Source: an uncultured Actinomycetes bacterium (GTDB lineage Bacteria; Actinomycetota; Thermoleophilia; Miltoncostaeales; Miltoncostaeaceae). Taken from it: a DNA stretch of 64,000 nucleotides. The notes under the pieces were generated by a model. The model was not told where the DNA came from and made no database searches. It saw nothing but the letters and a program-made list of their open reading frames with translations. Below are positions 29,553 through 34,803 of the stretch, piece after piece. The stretch is taken from positions 68,398 through 132,397 of the forward strand of contig CAITWD010000022.1 of NCBI GenBank assembly GCA_903896045.1, read 5' to 3'. Position 1 is the first letter of the stretch, and every line of letters starts with the position of its first letter. A program made the translations under genes and the position numbers.

Positions 29553-30755
29553 GTGAACGACGGTGCACGTCAACGTCGCCCGTGGCTCATGGTCCTTTTG
29601 GGTATATCCGGCGCAGTCGTGGTGTTCGCATTGGGCGTACTGGTGGGCGGCCATCCCCAGGCGACAGGCTTGACCCTTTTGCCCACCGGGGTTCGTCATC
29701 GGGTGCTCGGGGCGGGGAGCGACAACACCGCTGCCGATATTCGCGCGGAACTTATCTCGGGCTATTACCTGCCTGTGCACTCGGCGGCCCTCGAGCGGGC
29801 GTCGGTAGACCGAATGCTCGCGTCTCTGGGTGATCCCTACACCTACTATTTAGACCCGGGTGAGTACGCGGCGATGCAGCGTGAGACGCAAGGGCTGTTC
29901 GTGGGCGTCGGGATTCAGGTGCTCCAGCAGGGTACGCACCTACTGATCGCACGCGTGATCCCCGGCGGACCCGCCGAGCGCGCAGGCCTGCGTGGCGGTG
30001 ACGTCATCATCGCGGTCAATGGCCATTCGGTGATCGGAGAGCCAATGGCCAAGGTTGTCAGCGTGGTTCGTGGGCCTGTGGGTAGTGTCGTGACGCTGAC
30101 CGTGCGCACACAATCCGGAAAGATTGTGCGGGCGCCGATGCATCGTGAGGTCTTGCATTTGCAGTTGGTCACGACCCAATTGCACTCTGTGGGGCAGCGG
30201 CGCGTGGGAGTGATGCGCCTCGCAGAATTCGATCAAGGCGCTGCGGATCAAATTCGGACTGCAATTGCAGCGCTGACGCGTCGTGGTGCAACGTCGTTTG
30301 TCCTTGACCTTCGCGAGAATCCGGGAGGCCTAGTCACTGAAGCCGTCGGTGTGGTGGGGGATTTTGTCCAAAATGGAACGACGGTGGTCACAACGGTCGG
30401 CCTGCACAGCCCGCGTGCGACGACTCGGACGTCGGTGACCCCGGCAACCGCGCGCCCACTCATCGTCCTTGTGGATCGTCTGAGTGCAAGCGCCAGCGAG
30501 ATCGTGTCGGGCGCATTGCGGGATGCCGGGCGTGCGAAATTAGTTGGGCAGCGGACCTTCGGGAAGGCGGTCGTCCAGGAGACGGTCACGCTCCCCAACG
30601 GTGGTGCCCTGCACTTCACCATCGCGCGCTATCTCACACCCAAGGGTTATGACTTGAATCATCGAGGTTTGGTACCAGACATCTCCATTCCGGCTACCGT
30701 GTCAGCTGATGCGGCGCTCAACCGCGCGATTGGGATTGCTGCGGTGGCCCGCTGA
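29553..30755 (+). CDS. S41 family C-terminal processing peptidase with PDZ domain
   Basis: N-terminal TM; DPYTYYLDPGEYAAM, PDZ GGPAERAGLRGGDVIIAVNG, FVLDLRENPGG, LVDRLSASASEIVSGALRDAGRAKLVGQRTFGKAVVQ. Confidence 0.94.
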   Translation: MNDGARQRRPWLMVLLGISGAVVVFALGVLVGGHPQATGLTLLPTGVRHRVLGAGSDNTAADIRAELISGYYLPVHSAALERASVDRMLASLGDPYTYYLDPGEYAAMQRETQGLFVGVGIQVLQQGTHLLIARVIPGGPAERAGLRGGDVIIAVNGHSVIGEPMAKVVSVVRGPVGSVVTLTVRTQSGKIVRAPMHREVLHLQLVTTQLHSVGQRRVGVMRLAEFDQGAADQIRTAIAALTRRGATSFVLDLRENPGGLVTEAVGVVGDFVQNGTTVVTTVGLHSPRATTRTSVTPATARPLIVLVDRLSASASEIVSGALRDAGRAKLVGQRTFGKAVVQETVTLPNGGALHFTIARYLTPKGYDLNHRGLVPDISIPATVSADAALNRAIGIAAVAR

Positions 30756-32554
30756 TGGGGCGCGGTATTCCGACAACTGAGGTGATCGCGGAGATCGTCG
30801 GTTCTGGGAGGGGCGCGGTCGCGCGCACCGCCTTTGCGCGCGGTGAGGACATTCGCATGTCCTCGCAAAGCTTGGGTGAGGCCCGTGTTGGGGATCTTGC
30901 AAAAATTCTCGTCAAGACCCGATCTGCACGAGTGACTCAGGTGTTTGGCAAATCGCGCGCCCCTGGGGCCGTGATGTCCGCATTTCTTGCCGACAATCAA
31001 CGCGGGTATCCGACCGCGCGTGTCGTTGAGCGAGAGGTGGCGGAGATTGTCGAGGGTGATCCGCTCACAGATCCGGGGCGTCGCGACTGCACCGCACAAG
31101 ATGTGGTCACGATTGACCCTGATGGCGCGAAGGATCACGACGATGCCATCGCCGCGTCGATCGAGGGCGACGCTGTGCGCATCTGGGTGCATATTGCCGA
31201 CGTCAGCCACTATGTGCTTCCCGGCACCGCAGTTGATCGGGATGCATCGCGTCGTGGCTGTTCGGTGTATGTGCCGGGGCTCGTTGATCCGATGTTGCCC
31301 TCGCGTCTGTCGAGCGATCTGTGCAGTTTGCGACCGGGTGTCATCCGGCGGGTCATCACGGTCGAGATGGTGATCAGCGCAGATGGTCGCATCACCGATC
31401 CTCGGTTCTATCGTTCGGCGATTCGCTCGCAGCGTCGATTCACGTATCCAGAGGTTGATGCGCATTTCGCGGGTGCAGCCATTGATGAGGCCGGACTTGC
31501 CGCAACGATTGCAGCGGCCCGGATTGCTGCCGAGCGTTTGCATGCCCGACGCATGGAACGCGGTGCGCTCGAGCTGGGCTCGAATGAGCCGGTGTTTATC
31601 TTGAGTGAGACGCGGGTGGAAGGGGTGCGCATCGAGGAGCAAACCCCGTCGCACAGTTTGGTTGAAGAGTGCATGATCGCGGCGAACGAGGCGGTCGCGG
31701 GATATCTCATTGCCCGCAAGACCCCGACGGTCTTTCGCTATCACGAGGACCCCGAACAGCACCAAGTCGATCGTCTGTACGCACAGCTTGCCGCCCTCGG
31801 TGTGGCAACCCCGCCATTACCTGATGGCCACCTCGGTCCGAGTGAGCGCCGGGCGGCGGTGTCGGCAGCAGCAGAGGCAGTCGGTGCGCATCTTGAAGGG
31901 GTGCGCGCGCGAGGGGAGATCGATGGACGCGCCGTATGGGTCTTGGTCTTGCGCGCACTCAAACAGGCCTATTACTCTGCCGATTCGGTCACTCATTCCG
32001 GGCTTGCAAGCGCGGCCTACCTGCACTTCACTTCCCCGATTCGACGCTATCCCGATTTGCTGGTGCACCGCGCGCTCGTTGGCGCACTCGGAATTGGACC
32101 GGTTGGACCGCCACGCAGCGAGCTTGAGGTTGACGCCCTAGCGAGTTCGGAATCCGAGCGCGCCGCAGTCGATCTCGAGCGTCGTGCGGATCGGATGTGT
32201 GCGGCAATGGTGCTTGAGCGTGAGCTCCAGGCTTCCGATTGGGCCACCGTCTTTCCTGCGGAGGTCACCGGAATGATCTCGCGGGGTGCATTTTTACGAT
32301 TTGGTGTGGCCTACGAGGGGTTCTTGCCCGCATCGTCGCTGTCTCCAGGGGAGCTCGTCCTGGATGAGCAGGAGGTCAGTCTCCTCAACCATTCCGGCGA
32401 CGAAGTGATTCGCCTCGGCGACCATGTCGAGGTCCGTGTTGCCGAAATTGACGCGCTGAGGGGCAGGGTGCGGCTCGAACGTGCCGATGCCCCAGCGGGC
32501 GCGAAGATTGCGCGATCTCGTGCCCAGCGACGCATGGCGCGCCGCCCGCGCTAG
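30755..32554 (+). CDS. rnr: Ribonuclease R / RNase II family exoribonuclease (short N-terminus)
   Basis: 599 aa; TIDPDGAKDHDDAIAASIEGDAVRIWVHIADVSHYV, HFTSPIRRYPDLLVHRAL, C-terminal S1-like region and basic tail. Confidence 0.93.
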   Translation: MGRGIPTTEVIAEIVGSGRGAVARTAFARGEDIRMSSQSLGEARVGDLAKILVKTRSARVTQVFGKSRAPGAVMSAFLADNQRGYPTARVVEREVAEIVEGDPLTDPGRRDCTAQDVVTIDPDGAKDHDDAIAASIEGDAVRIWVHIADVSHYVLPGTAVDRDASRRGCSVYVPGLVDPMLPSRLSSDLCSLRPGVIRRVITVEMVISADGRITDPRFYRSAIRSQRRFTYPEVDAHFAGAAIDEAGLAATIAAARIAAERLHARRMERGALELGSNEPVFILSETRVEGVRIEEQTPSHSLVEECMIAANEAVAGYLIARKTPTVFRYHEDPEQHQVDRLYAQLAALGVATPPLPDGHLGPSERRAAVSAAAEAVGAHLEGVRARGEIDGRAVWVLVLRALKQAYYSADSVTHSGLASAAYLHFTSPIRRYPDLLVHRALVGALGIGPVGPPRSELEVDALASSESERAAVDLERRADRMCAAMVLERELQASDWATVFPAEVTGMISRGAFLRFGVAYEGFLPASSLSPGELVLDEQEVSLLNHSGDEVIRLGDHVEVRVAEIDALRGRVRLERADAPAGAKIARSRAQRRMARRPR

Positions 32555-32566
32555 GGTGGGGGAGTT

Positions 32567-33052
32567 ATGGCCCCTGGGAAAACAAAAAAAGGTCAGCGGG
32601 ACGAGCGCTTTCGCGACATCGCCCAGAATCGCCGTGCATTTTTTGAGTATGAGATCGTGGAACGTATGGATGCGGGATTGGTGCTGATCGGCACCGAGGT
32701 GAAGGGGCTGCGCGAGCGTGGCGCATCGATTGGGGATGCCTATGTGATTATCCGCGAGGGAGAAGCCTGGCTGATCGGTGCGACGATTCCTGAGTATTCG
32801 AATGCATCACATTCCAGTCACGAGCCGCAGCGCACACGAAAGCTGTTGTTGCACCGGCGCGAGATTGATCGCCTGACGAGCCGCTTGAATGAAAAGGGCC
32901 TTGCCCTTGTGCCATTGCGGATGTACTTCCATGAGGGGCGCGCCAAGATTGAACTTGGTCTTGGACGCGGGAAATCGAAGTTCGACAAGCGCCATACGAT
33001 CGCAGCACGTGATGCCAATCGAGATATCGCGCGCGCAGTCAAACGAGGATGA
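32567..33052 (+). CDS. smpB: SsrA-binding protein SmpB
   Basis: 161 aa; NRRAFFEYEIVERMDAGLVLIGTEVKGLRERGASIGDAYV, LGRGKSKFDKRHTIAARDANRDIARAVK. Confidence 0.97.
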   Translation: MAPGKTKKGQRDERFRDIAQNRRAFFEYEIVERMDAGLVLIGTEVKGLRERGASIGDAYVIIREGEAWLIGATIPEYSNASHSSHEPQRTRKLLLHRREIDRLTSRLNEKGLALVPLRMYFHEGRAKIELGLGRGKSKFDKRHTIAARDANRDIARAVKRG

Positions 33053-33172
33053 GCACGCGATGATCGGGCGCCTCGTGGAGCGAACGCCGGCGTGAGATGT
33101 TGCGGCTGAGAGGTATGCTGCAGGCTGCGTCAGGACGACGTCGGGCGTCGAGTGCGTGATGAAAGGCGTGAG

Positions 33173-34384
33173 ATGACAGACCCCCTTGCCTCGACGTTGT
33201 CGCAGATGGCCGACGACTACGCAGTCTTTGCCAAATCCCAAGCCGCATCATTTGCGCGCACATATCCGACAGCTATCGAGGCAGCACGGTCCTTCTCGGA
33301 CCTTCCGGAACTCATGGTGGTGGATCTCGGTGCTGCGGATGGAGTGAACTCGCACGAGTTGATCCGTGCACTTGAAAGGGTGCGAGAGGGTCGACGACTG
33401 GTGTATGCCTGTGTCGATCTTCCGAGCAACGTGTGGTCGGTGTCGCACGCGCATCTTGTGCGCGAGTGGGCTACGGCATATGAGGCGGGACAATTTGCGG
33501 TGCTTCCCGCCGAATCAACTCCGAACGAGCATGTTGTCGATGCGGGAACCGGCGTGCATTTTCACAATGCCCATGTCCATGCACGCGCGGTGGGTGAGCA
33601 ATTTGCCGCCAATCCCGATGTGCGCACAATTGTCAGCCATGTCGGCGTCCCATTGCATATGGGGTTGTGCGCACCGGCGGGGTCGGTGCACATCGCCGTC
33701 AGTGGTACAACGATGCACTGGGTGTCGGATTCTGGACAGCTTCGATCCACGGGATCCGTATTTCCGGGATACGCCCACCACATCGATGAGCATGAACGGC
33801 AGGCATGGGCGGCAGCGGCTGCGCGAGATTGGCGGCAGATCCTTGCCTATCGTGCCCAAGAACTCGCCCCGGGCGGGGTGCTCGTGATTGCGATTCCTGT
33901 CGCCGCGCAGGAGGGCCCGGCACGTGATGGCCTCTATTGCGAGATCAATCGCGATATGGATGACGTGTTGGCGCGGTGGCGTCAGGAGGGTCGCATCGAT
34001 GCGCGGGTGCACGATGCAATCACTGTGCCGGTATGGATGCGCACGACGGATGAACTCGAGGCCCCGTTCATAACGCGCGATCCGCTCGTCGATGGGCTGC
34101 GGCTGAGACACATTGAGGTGTTTCGTCTCGACAACCCCTACTGGGATGATGATCCCGCGATATTTGCCGATCGTTATGTGCGCAGCGTTGCCGCATGGGG
34201 GGGACCCCTCTTTCGCCGGGCATTCGCGTTGTCGTACCCCGACCAAGCGGACGCCTTGCTGGCGGCGTTCCTCGCGGAGTTGGAAGAGTGTGTGCGTCGA
34301 GACACCGATCGGTATCGCTGGGATTACATCGAGGCACTCGTTGTCTGTCGTAAAGACCATCCCGCGGACACGCCAACCCAGTAG
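33173..34384 (+). CDS. SABATH-like SAM-dependent carboxyl methyltransferase
   Basis: LMVVDLGAADGVNSHELI (SAM motif I), VSGTTMHWVSDSG (cf. SABATH SSYSLMWLS), PGGVLVIAIPV, then C-terminal substrate-domain-like region. Start at ATG 33173. Confidence 0.7.
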   Translation: MTDPLASTLSQMADDYAVFAKSQAASFARTYPTAIEAARSFSDLPELMVVDLGAADGVNSHELIRALERVREGRRLVYACVDLPSNVWSVSHAHLVREWATAYEAGQFAVLPAESTPNEHVVDAGTGVHFHNAHVHARAVGEQFAANPDVRTIVSHVGVPLHMGLCAPAGSVHIAVSGTTMHWVSDSGQLRSTGSVFPGYAHHIDEHERQAWAAAAARDWRQILAYRAQELAPGGVLVIAIPVAAQEGPARDGLYCEINRDMDDVLARWRQEGRIDARVHDAITVPVWMRTTDELEAPFITRDPLVDGLRLRHIEVFRLDNPYWDDDPAIFADRYVRSVAAWGGPLFRRAFALSYPDQADALLAAFLAELEECVRRDTDRYRWDYIEALVVCRKDHPADTPTQ

Positions 34385-34425: not shown

Positions 34426-34791
34426 GGGCCCGATCCAGTATCGACGGAGTAGGAGGGTATCGGTAAGCGAGCCGCGGACTCGGTGGACCGCGTCAAAAAC
34501 CGAGACATAACGTAGCTGCGGAGAACTCTCCCAAGCTCGCTCTCGCTGCCTAATCAGCAGTAATTGAGAGCCATTGGCCTTCCCTCGGGTGTCGGGGAAG
34601 ATAACCGGTGTCAGCCTAGCCACCCTGGTTCGTCGGCAACGGTTCTCGGCCGGCGAATAAGATCACAGGAGTACCTGGCGAGGTCCGGTTGGCCGACGGG
34701 AACGGCCCTCGTAAGATCAGCCTGTCGGCTGCGCTCGGAGAAGCTGATACGCAAGTACTTTCGGACGCCGGGGCAGTGCCGGCCGGGTCCA
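34426..34791 (+). ncRNA. ssrA: Transfer-messenger RNA (tmRNA), tag peptide (A)AENSPKLALAA
   Basis: Acceptor GGGCCCG (34426-34432)/CGGGTCC (34784-34790) with G3-U pair; H2 GAGTA/TACTT and GTATCGG/CTGATAC; PK1 CGCGG/CCGCG plus CTCGGT/ACCGAG; tag frame GCT GCG GAG AAC TCT CCC AAG CTC GCT CTC GCT GCC TAA (34515-34553) ending LALAA; H5 GCTCTC/GAGAGC around GCTG/CAGC; near smpB. Confidence 0.95.
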
Positions 34792-34803
34792 CCTTCCATA
34801 CGC

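Follow-up and report, generated by a model that had tools for sequence, protein, structure and literature searches.

The window, the whole 64,000-nucleotide stretch of DNA that was analysed, carries an ssrA gene (Table 1) on which a cmscan search, the Infernal check proposed with the initial annotation, returned the Rfam tmRNA model RF00023 over its full length (model positions 1-374, 106.1 bits, E 6e-42, cut-off 47). The locus thus encodes a true tmRNA, as first annotated. It is the sole tmRNA gene of its genome, a 1.67-Mb draft that is 99.85% complete, and the Rfam scan found no other RNA family within the 64-kb window. Upstream of ssrA lie genes for an S41 peptidase, an RNase R, SmpB and a methyltransferase. 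Such surroundings are usual for ssrA; the PF03492 methyltransferase-like gene is probably a neighbour unrelated to the tmRNA.

Table 1. Features of the ssrA locus, numbered from the first letter of the window
Feature	Position	Strand	Basis or remark
RNase R-like ribonuclease, RNB and S1 domains	30755..32554	+	PF00773, 304.8 bits; PF00575
smpB, ordinary family member, protein partner of tmRNA	32567..33052	+	PF01668, 185.6 bits; alignment
SAM-dependent carboxyl methyltransferase-like gene, between smpB and ssrA	33152..34384	+	PF03492
ssrA, one-piece tmRNA with alternative elbow	34426..34794	+	RF00023 full-model match, 106.1 bits
Acceptor stem, 5' strand (GGGCCCG), with G3 of the alanine identity pair G3-U70 at 34428	34426..34432	+	sequence
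Reduced D region ATCCAGTATCGAC; D-loop GATCCAGTATCGAC	34433..34445	+	sequence
Tag reading frame AAENSPKLALAA, then stop	34515..34553	+	translation
T-arm GCCGG-GGCAGTG-CCGGC; stem 34767-34771 / 34779-34783	34767..34783	+	sequence, RF00023, folding, relatives
T-loop GGCAGTG: G54 G55 C56 A57 G58 U59 G60; C56 at 34774	34772..34778	+	sequence
Acceptor stem, 3' strand CGGGTCC; U70 at 34788	34784..34790	+	sequence
Discriminator A	34791	+	sequence; CCA encoded in part only (ACCT)

On re-reading, the letters and positions initially given for the acceptor, D region, T-stem and loop all proved correct. By the standard traits the gene is a tmRNA gene: besides the full-length RF00023 match it has the G3-U70 pair, the discriminator A and a tag frame, and the genome contains smpB. 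The acceptor GGGCCCG is common to all complete Miltoncostaeaceae members, the tag ends in ALAA, as in nearly all relatives, and both the H2 strands and the TCGAC block are in place. This block (34441-34445) includes the equivalents of C18 and G19 of E. coli tmRNA, which touch SmpB (PMC8363625). What the gene does not have is the usual TTCRANY T-loop with a GG in the D-loop; it has GGCAGTG with AG instead. Folding of the T-arm gave exactly a 5-bp stem and a 7-nt loop, and the same loop is found in relatives, so that the non-canonical T-loop described at the outset is genuine. The claimed loss of the D-loop GG stands only for its first base. Position 18 (G13 of E. coli tmRNA) has become A at 34437; aligned from TCGAC, the change is from GG to AG, and the equivalent of G19 is kept at 34438. 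The absence of TTCRANY and GG is no bar to tmRNA membership, since alphaproteobacterial tmRNAs also do without them.

To follow the variant through the class Thermoleophilia, the exact 21-base T-arm GGACGCCGGGGCAGTRCCGGC was searched in 399 genomes. It occurs in 31 of the 42 genomes sampled from the window's own family, Miltoncostaeaceae (f1), single-contig and complete assemblies included, and outside this family in four genomes of f5 (G060, G181, G199 and G295) and three of f9 (G265, G352 and G393). An independent search with the D-loop form GGGNNCGANNNAGNNTCGACG retrieved 33 Miltoncostaeaceae members, the same seven f5 and f9 genomes, and the tmRNA of G070; further matches that were examined (G302, G243, G398 and G138) are not tmRNA genes. 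In G033 and G171 the D-loop form is present and the T-arm absent, both at contig ends. The two changes are therefore found together in relatives, as the initial annotation had anticipated in proposing a coordinated change rather than a sequencing error. Relatives with a standard loop, which would have spoken against that proposal, did not turn up in the family: none of the sampled Miltoncostaeaceae members has a canonical chromosomal tmRNA. A GG D-loop with a TTCRANY T-loop is the form in families f2-f4 and f6-f8 and in most of f5 and f9. In G055 (f7, 99% complete) and G392 (f9, 72% complete) no tmRNA reached the Rfam cut-off, which may reflect losses at the filter step, gaps in the drafts or forms that have diverged further.

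Beyond the class, no one-piece tmRNA with the variant T-loop was found in about 360 other Actinomycetota genomes. Nor was the variant T-loop found in two further phyla, represented by a Chloroflexi and a Desulfobulbus genome and sampled with about 150 genomes each; the few matches there do not have a paired T-stem. Plasmid and phage records held no similar DNA, and we rejected a restriction of the variant to a mobile element. In most f1, f5 and f9 genomes with both genes on one contig, ssrA and smpB are no more than a few kb apart. In G393, the variant tmRNA is preceded, at a distance of about 2 kb, by a c-di-GMP-I riboswitch (RF01051, 62 bits; L202:2882-2960, + strand).

The D- and T-loops were then compared in 151 tmRNAs, of which 87 belong to Thermoleophilia, 54 to alphaproteobacteria and 10 to other groups. 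Positions 18 and 55 are A-G in 85 and G-U in 66 of them, positions 54 and 58 are G-G in 83 and U-A in 68, and neither pair shows any other combination. By this comparison of sequences, 18 changes together with 55 and 54 together with 58, with G19-C56 constant (151/151). Both partners of the elbow contact had initially been taken as lost; instead, G19-C56 is intact, and 18-55 and 54-58 have been exchanged as a matched set. Because the sequences are related, the counts reflect only a few independent events, namely one gain each in Thermoleophilia and alphaproteobacteria, a joint reversion and two partly changed forms. The partly changed forms are the tmRNAs of G070 in Thermoleophilia (T-loop TGCAATT) and of G783 in alphaproteobacteria (TAG with TGCGATT), both of which combine A18-G55 with U54-A58. 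The joint reversion is that of the alphaproteobacterium G854, with G18 and TTC; its tmRNA gene (L376, 1-410) is permuted and has a canonical-type elbow at both sites, with TGG and a 6-nt TTCGAC loop. Two other geometries were considered. Antiparallel kissing of the D- and T-loops (C17-G58, G19-C56) is not favoured, as position 17 may be C, T or A and the intermediates have A58. An alternative hairpin, GGC-AGT-GCC, is not maintained in loops with a final A and is not the predicted minimum.

The elbow type itself is already known; its presence in a one-piece actinobacterial tmRNA is new. The combination A18 G19 with G54 G55 C56 R57 G58, which characterises the alphaproteobacterial elbow, is exactly that of the window tmRNA. 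It was found in 52 of the 54 alphaproteobacterial tmRNAs examined, the other two being one intermediate and one double reversion. These two-piece tmRNAs (RF01849 / RF04321) share with ours a D-loop NAG before NNTCGAC, mostly a GGCRGTR T-loop (exactly GGCAGTG in three of the 54) and the conserved G19-C56; the Rfam model consensus is CCGGG-GGCgGUA-CCCGG with GAAAuAGGAUCGACG. The window gene is nevertheless not of the RF01849 type, with its permuted gene and two-piece RNA: it is one-piece, in standard order, with the tag and pseudoknots of Thermoleophilia and another T-stem. A change of U342 to G in Caulobacter tmRNA was already noted in a modelling paper of 2005 (PMC1168896), as were two guanines in place of U341 and U342 in the mitochondrial tmRNA of the jakobid Reclinomonas americana. 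The latter resembles the window tmRNA in having GG at 54-55 and differs from it in being mitochondrial and, like jakobid tmRNAs (PMC3985003), without a tag frame. Purine-purine 54-58 pairs have also been described in tRNAs, as A54-A58 in eukaryotic initiator tRNA and some tRNA-Ala, rather than the G-G of the window; among the tRNAs covered by the consulted part of that source, the 18-55 swap is not seen (PMC7566577). Compared with the standard RF00023 tmRNA of the E. coli type, the window tmRNA has the same architecture, acceptor G3-U70, TCGAC, H2, ALAA tag end and smpB, and differs in having A-G instead of G-U at 18-55 and G-G instead of U-A at 54-58. Also new are the exceptionless double covariation, a probable horizontal spread, and the failure of ARAGORN to detect any of the variant genes tested.

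The history of the variant was approached with a tree of the tmRNA body, from which the D-loop, T-arm and acceptor were left out. The f1 variants form one clade (100/100) and the f5 and f9 variants, together with G070, another (100/99), both nested in a part of the tree with canonical f5, f7 and f9 tmRNAs. In a tree without two divergent extra copies, all variants group, with weak support (88/68) and long branches involved. A single clade of f9 tmRNAs is rejected (p 2e-33), as is a single clade of f5 tmRNAs (p 2e-9), which indicates that several families share the variant lineage through transfer or differential loss of copies. Its presence in a few f5 and f9 genera is thus best explained by a separate tmRNA lineage that arrived by gene transfer or outlived differential copy loss. 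As for G070, its place inside the f5/f9 variant clade suggests that it may be a partial return and not a stepping stone.

Extra tmRNA copies do occur, as illustrated by G295, which has one variant gene and one of canonical type, and by Miltoncostaea oceani, which has a second tmRNA of canonical type. The second gene of M. oceani (L029:1501-1856, - strand; NZ_CP064357.1, about 455860-456215) lies on an 815-kb replicon and is very divergent, with the tag ADNRLALAA and canonical-type loops (CGG and a 6-nt TTCGAA). The PLSDB table for this replicon lists no RNA genes. The 815,643-base replicon of G025, a genome of the window's own family, has a tmRNA region identical to that of the M. oceani SCSIO 61214 plasmid, which identifies the family as Miltoncostaeaceae (Actinomycetota, Thermoleophilia). 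In G295, the second tmRNA-like gene (L201, contig C341, 589-951, - strand; 65 bits) lies on a 2.7-kb contig; it has the T-arm GCCGG-TTCAACT-CCGGC and a GG D-loop, was missed by ARAGORN and shows no recognisable tag with an ALAA end.

We are confident in reading the window gene as a standard one-piece tmRNA with an equivalent alternative set of elbow contacts, which would have originated in Thermoleophilia, become fixed in Miltoncostaeaceae and reached other families as a lineage by transfer or copy loss. The elbow most likely arose once in Thermoleophilia tmRNA, independently of alphaproteobacteria; compared with alphaproteobacterial tmRNAs, the variant has a different body, gene order, T-stem and D-loop tail, which makes an independent origin likely rather than proven. 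With somewhat less assurance, though still inclining towards it, we propose that two interchangeable elbow codes exist (G18-U55/U54-A58 and A18-G55/G54-G58), the second having arisen independently in actinobacterial one-piece and alphaproteobacterial tmRNA, that the 18-55 swap is viable alone, as in the A18-G55/U54-A58 forms, and that the actinobacterial form spread between families as a gene.

A different history, which we regard as unlikely though worth serious attention, is that recombination brought in the tRNA-like domain or both gene ends from an alphaproteobacterial tmRNA, for instance through an island integrating at the 3' end of ssrA. The loops match some alphaproteobacterial ones exactly (GATCCAG with GGCAGTG in L362), the f5 and f9 variants share the acceptor GGGGGCG with alphaproteobacterial tmRNAs, and the variant lineage is at odds with family membership; ssrA is also described as a frequent site of island integration (PMC11915505). 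Against such an exchange, the gene is unpermuted, its tag and pseudoknot body fall with those of Thermoleophilia, the T-stem is GCCGG where alphaproteobacteria mostly have CCGGG, and the D-loop tail is in most cases a different one (AGTTTCGAC versus AGGATCGAC in alphaproteobacteria). Moreover, about 330 bases of the gene separate the D-loop from the T-loop, so that a swap of the 3' end alone would not bring both.

That the tmRNA is decaying or non-functional, its elbow lost without replacement, is very improbable. ARAGORN is blind to the gene, and RF00023 scores are about 71-108 bits in complete Miltoncostaeaceae members versus about 129-200 in sister families; yet in 38 genomes from three families the T-arm is letter-perfect except for R60, the tag, acceptor and G3-U70 are retained, smpB is intact and the genome has no second tmRNA. 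Compensation by a second, canonical tmRNA in the same genome was considered separately and rejected, none having been found genome-wide. An assembly or sequencing error at 34772-34778 is refuted for practical purposes by the identical loop in many independent assemblies of relatives, among them single-contig and complete genomes.

Returning to the reading as a standard tmRNA with an equivalent elbow, the window tmRNA is, judging from its conserved parts, very likely functional and would perform ordinary trans-translation. The corner of its tRNA-like domain would be closed by alternative yet equivalent tertiary contacts: the D- and T-loops would still dock through a Watson-Crick G19-C56 pair, A18 would face G55, and G54-G58 would take the place of the reverse-Hoogsteen U54-A58 atop the T-stem. 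With its corner closed in this manner, the RNA would present a nearly usual shape to SmpB, EF-Tu and AlaRS. The modifications m5U54 and pseudouridine-55 cannot form on it, since both uridines are absent. The G13-U342 interaction of E. coli was reportedly demonstrated by Barends in 2002, in work that may already mention the alphaproteobacterial covariation. That D/T-loop interactions are required for SmpB binding and function is stated, with reference to Barends 2002, in a 2014 review (PMC3968760).

Adaptation of SmpB to the elbow was rejected, as SmpB differences follow families and not elbow type. The SmpB comparison suggested at the outset revealed no residue that sorts variant from canonical genomes, and SmpB of the f9 variant genomes is by alignment an ordinary f9 SmpB. 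The leucine patch that holds G19 in E. coli (PMC8363625) is conserved or nearly so in the SmpB proteins compared. The tRNAs examined from the window's genome have canonical GG and TTCRANY loops. How SmpB, EF-Tu and AlaRS handle the alternative elbow, a question raised by the initial annotation, would largely be answered by the ordinary SmpB and the alphaproteobacterial precedent, the two-piece tmRNA of Caulobacter being known to work (PMC3985003).

ARAGORN found nothing at the window tmRNA and none of the 21 one-piece variant loci. It did detect all the canonical chromosomal loci on which it was run, along with the intermediate and the plasmid copy of M. oceani, and it recognised most of the permuted genes tested from alphaproteobacteria, despite their having the same loop. 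Miltoncostaeaceae genomes can consequently be wrongly scored as devoid of tmRNA. The current tmRNA database gathers ARAGORN and BLASTN matches in its main protocol (PMC11915505), so the clade may also be thinly represented there.

The value of these observations lies in a clean natural covariation and an annotation blind spot more than in a new mechanism. The double covariation, the partial forms and the reversion provide comparative evidence for selection on the D-T contact and on 54-58 as base pairs, and the natural elbow variants are ready-made material on the requirements of SmpB and EF-Tu. If the two origins are convergent, a highly conserved tertiary contact of the tRNA fold would have a second workable solution.
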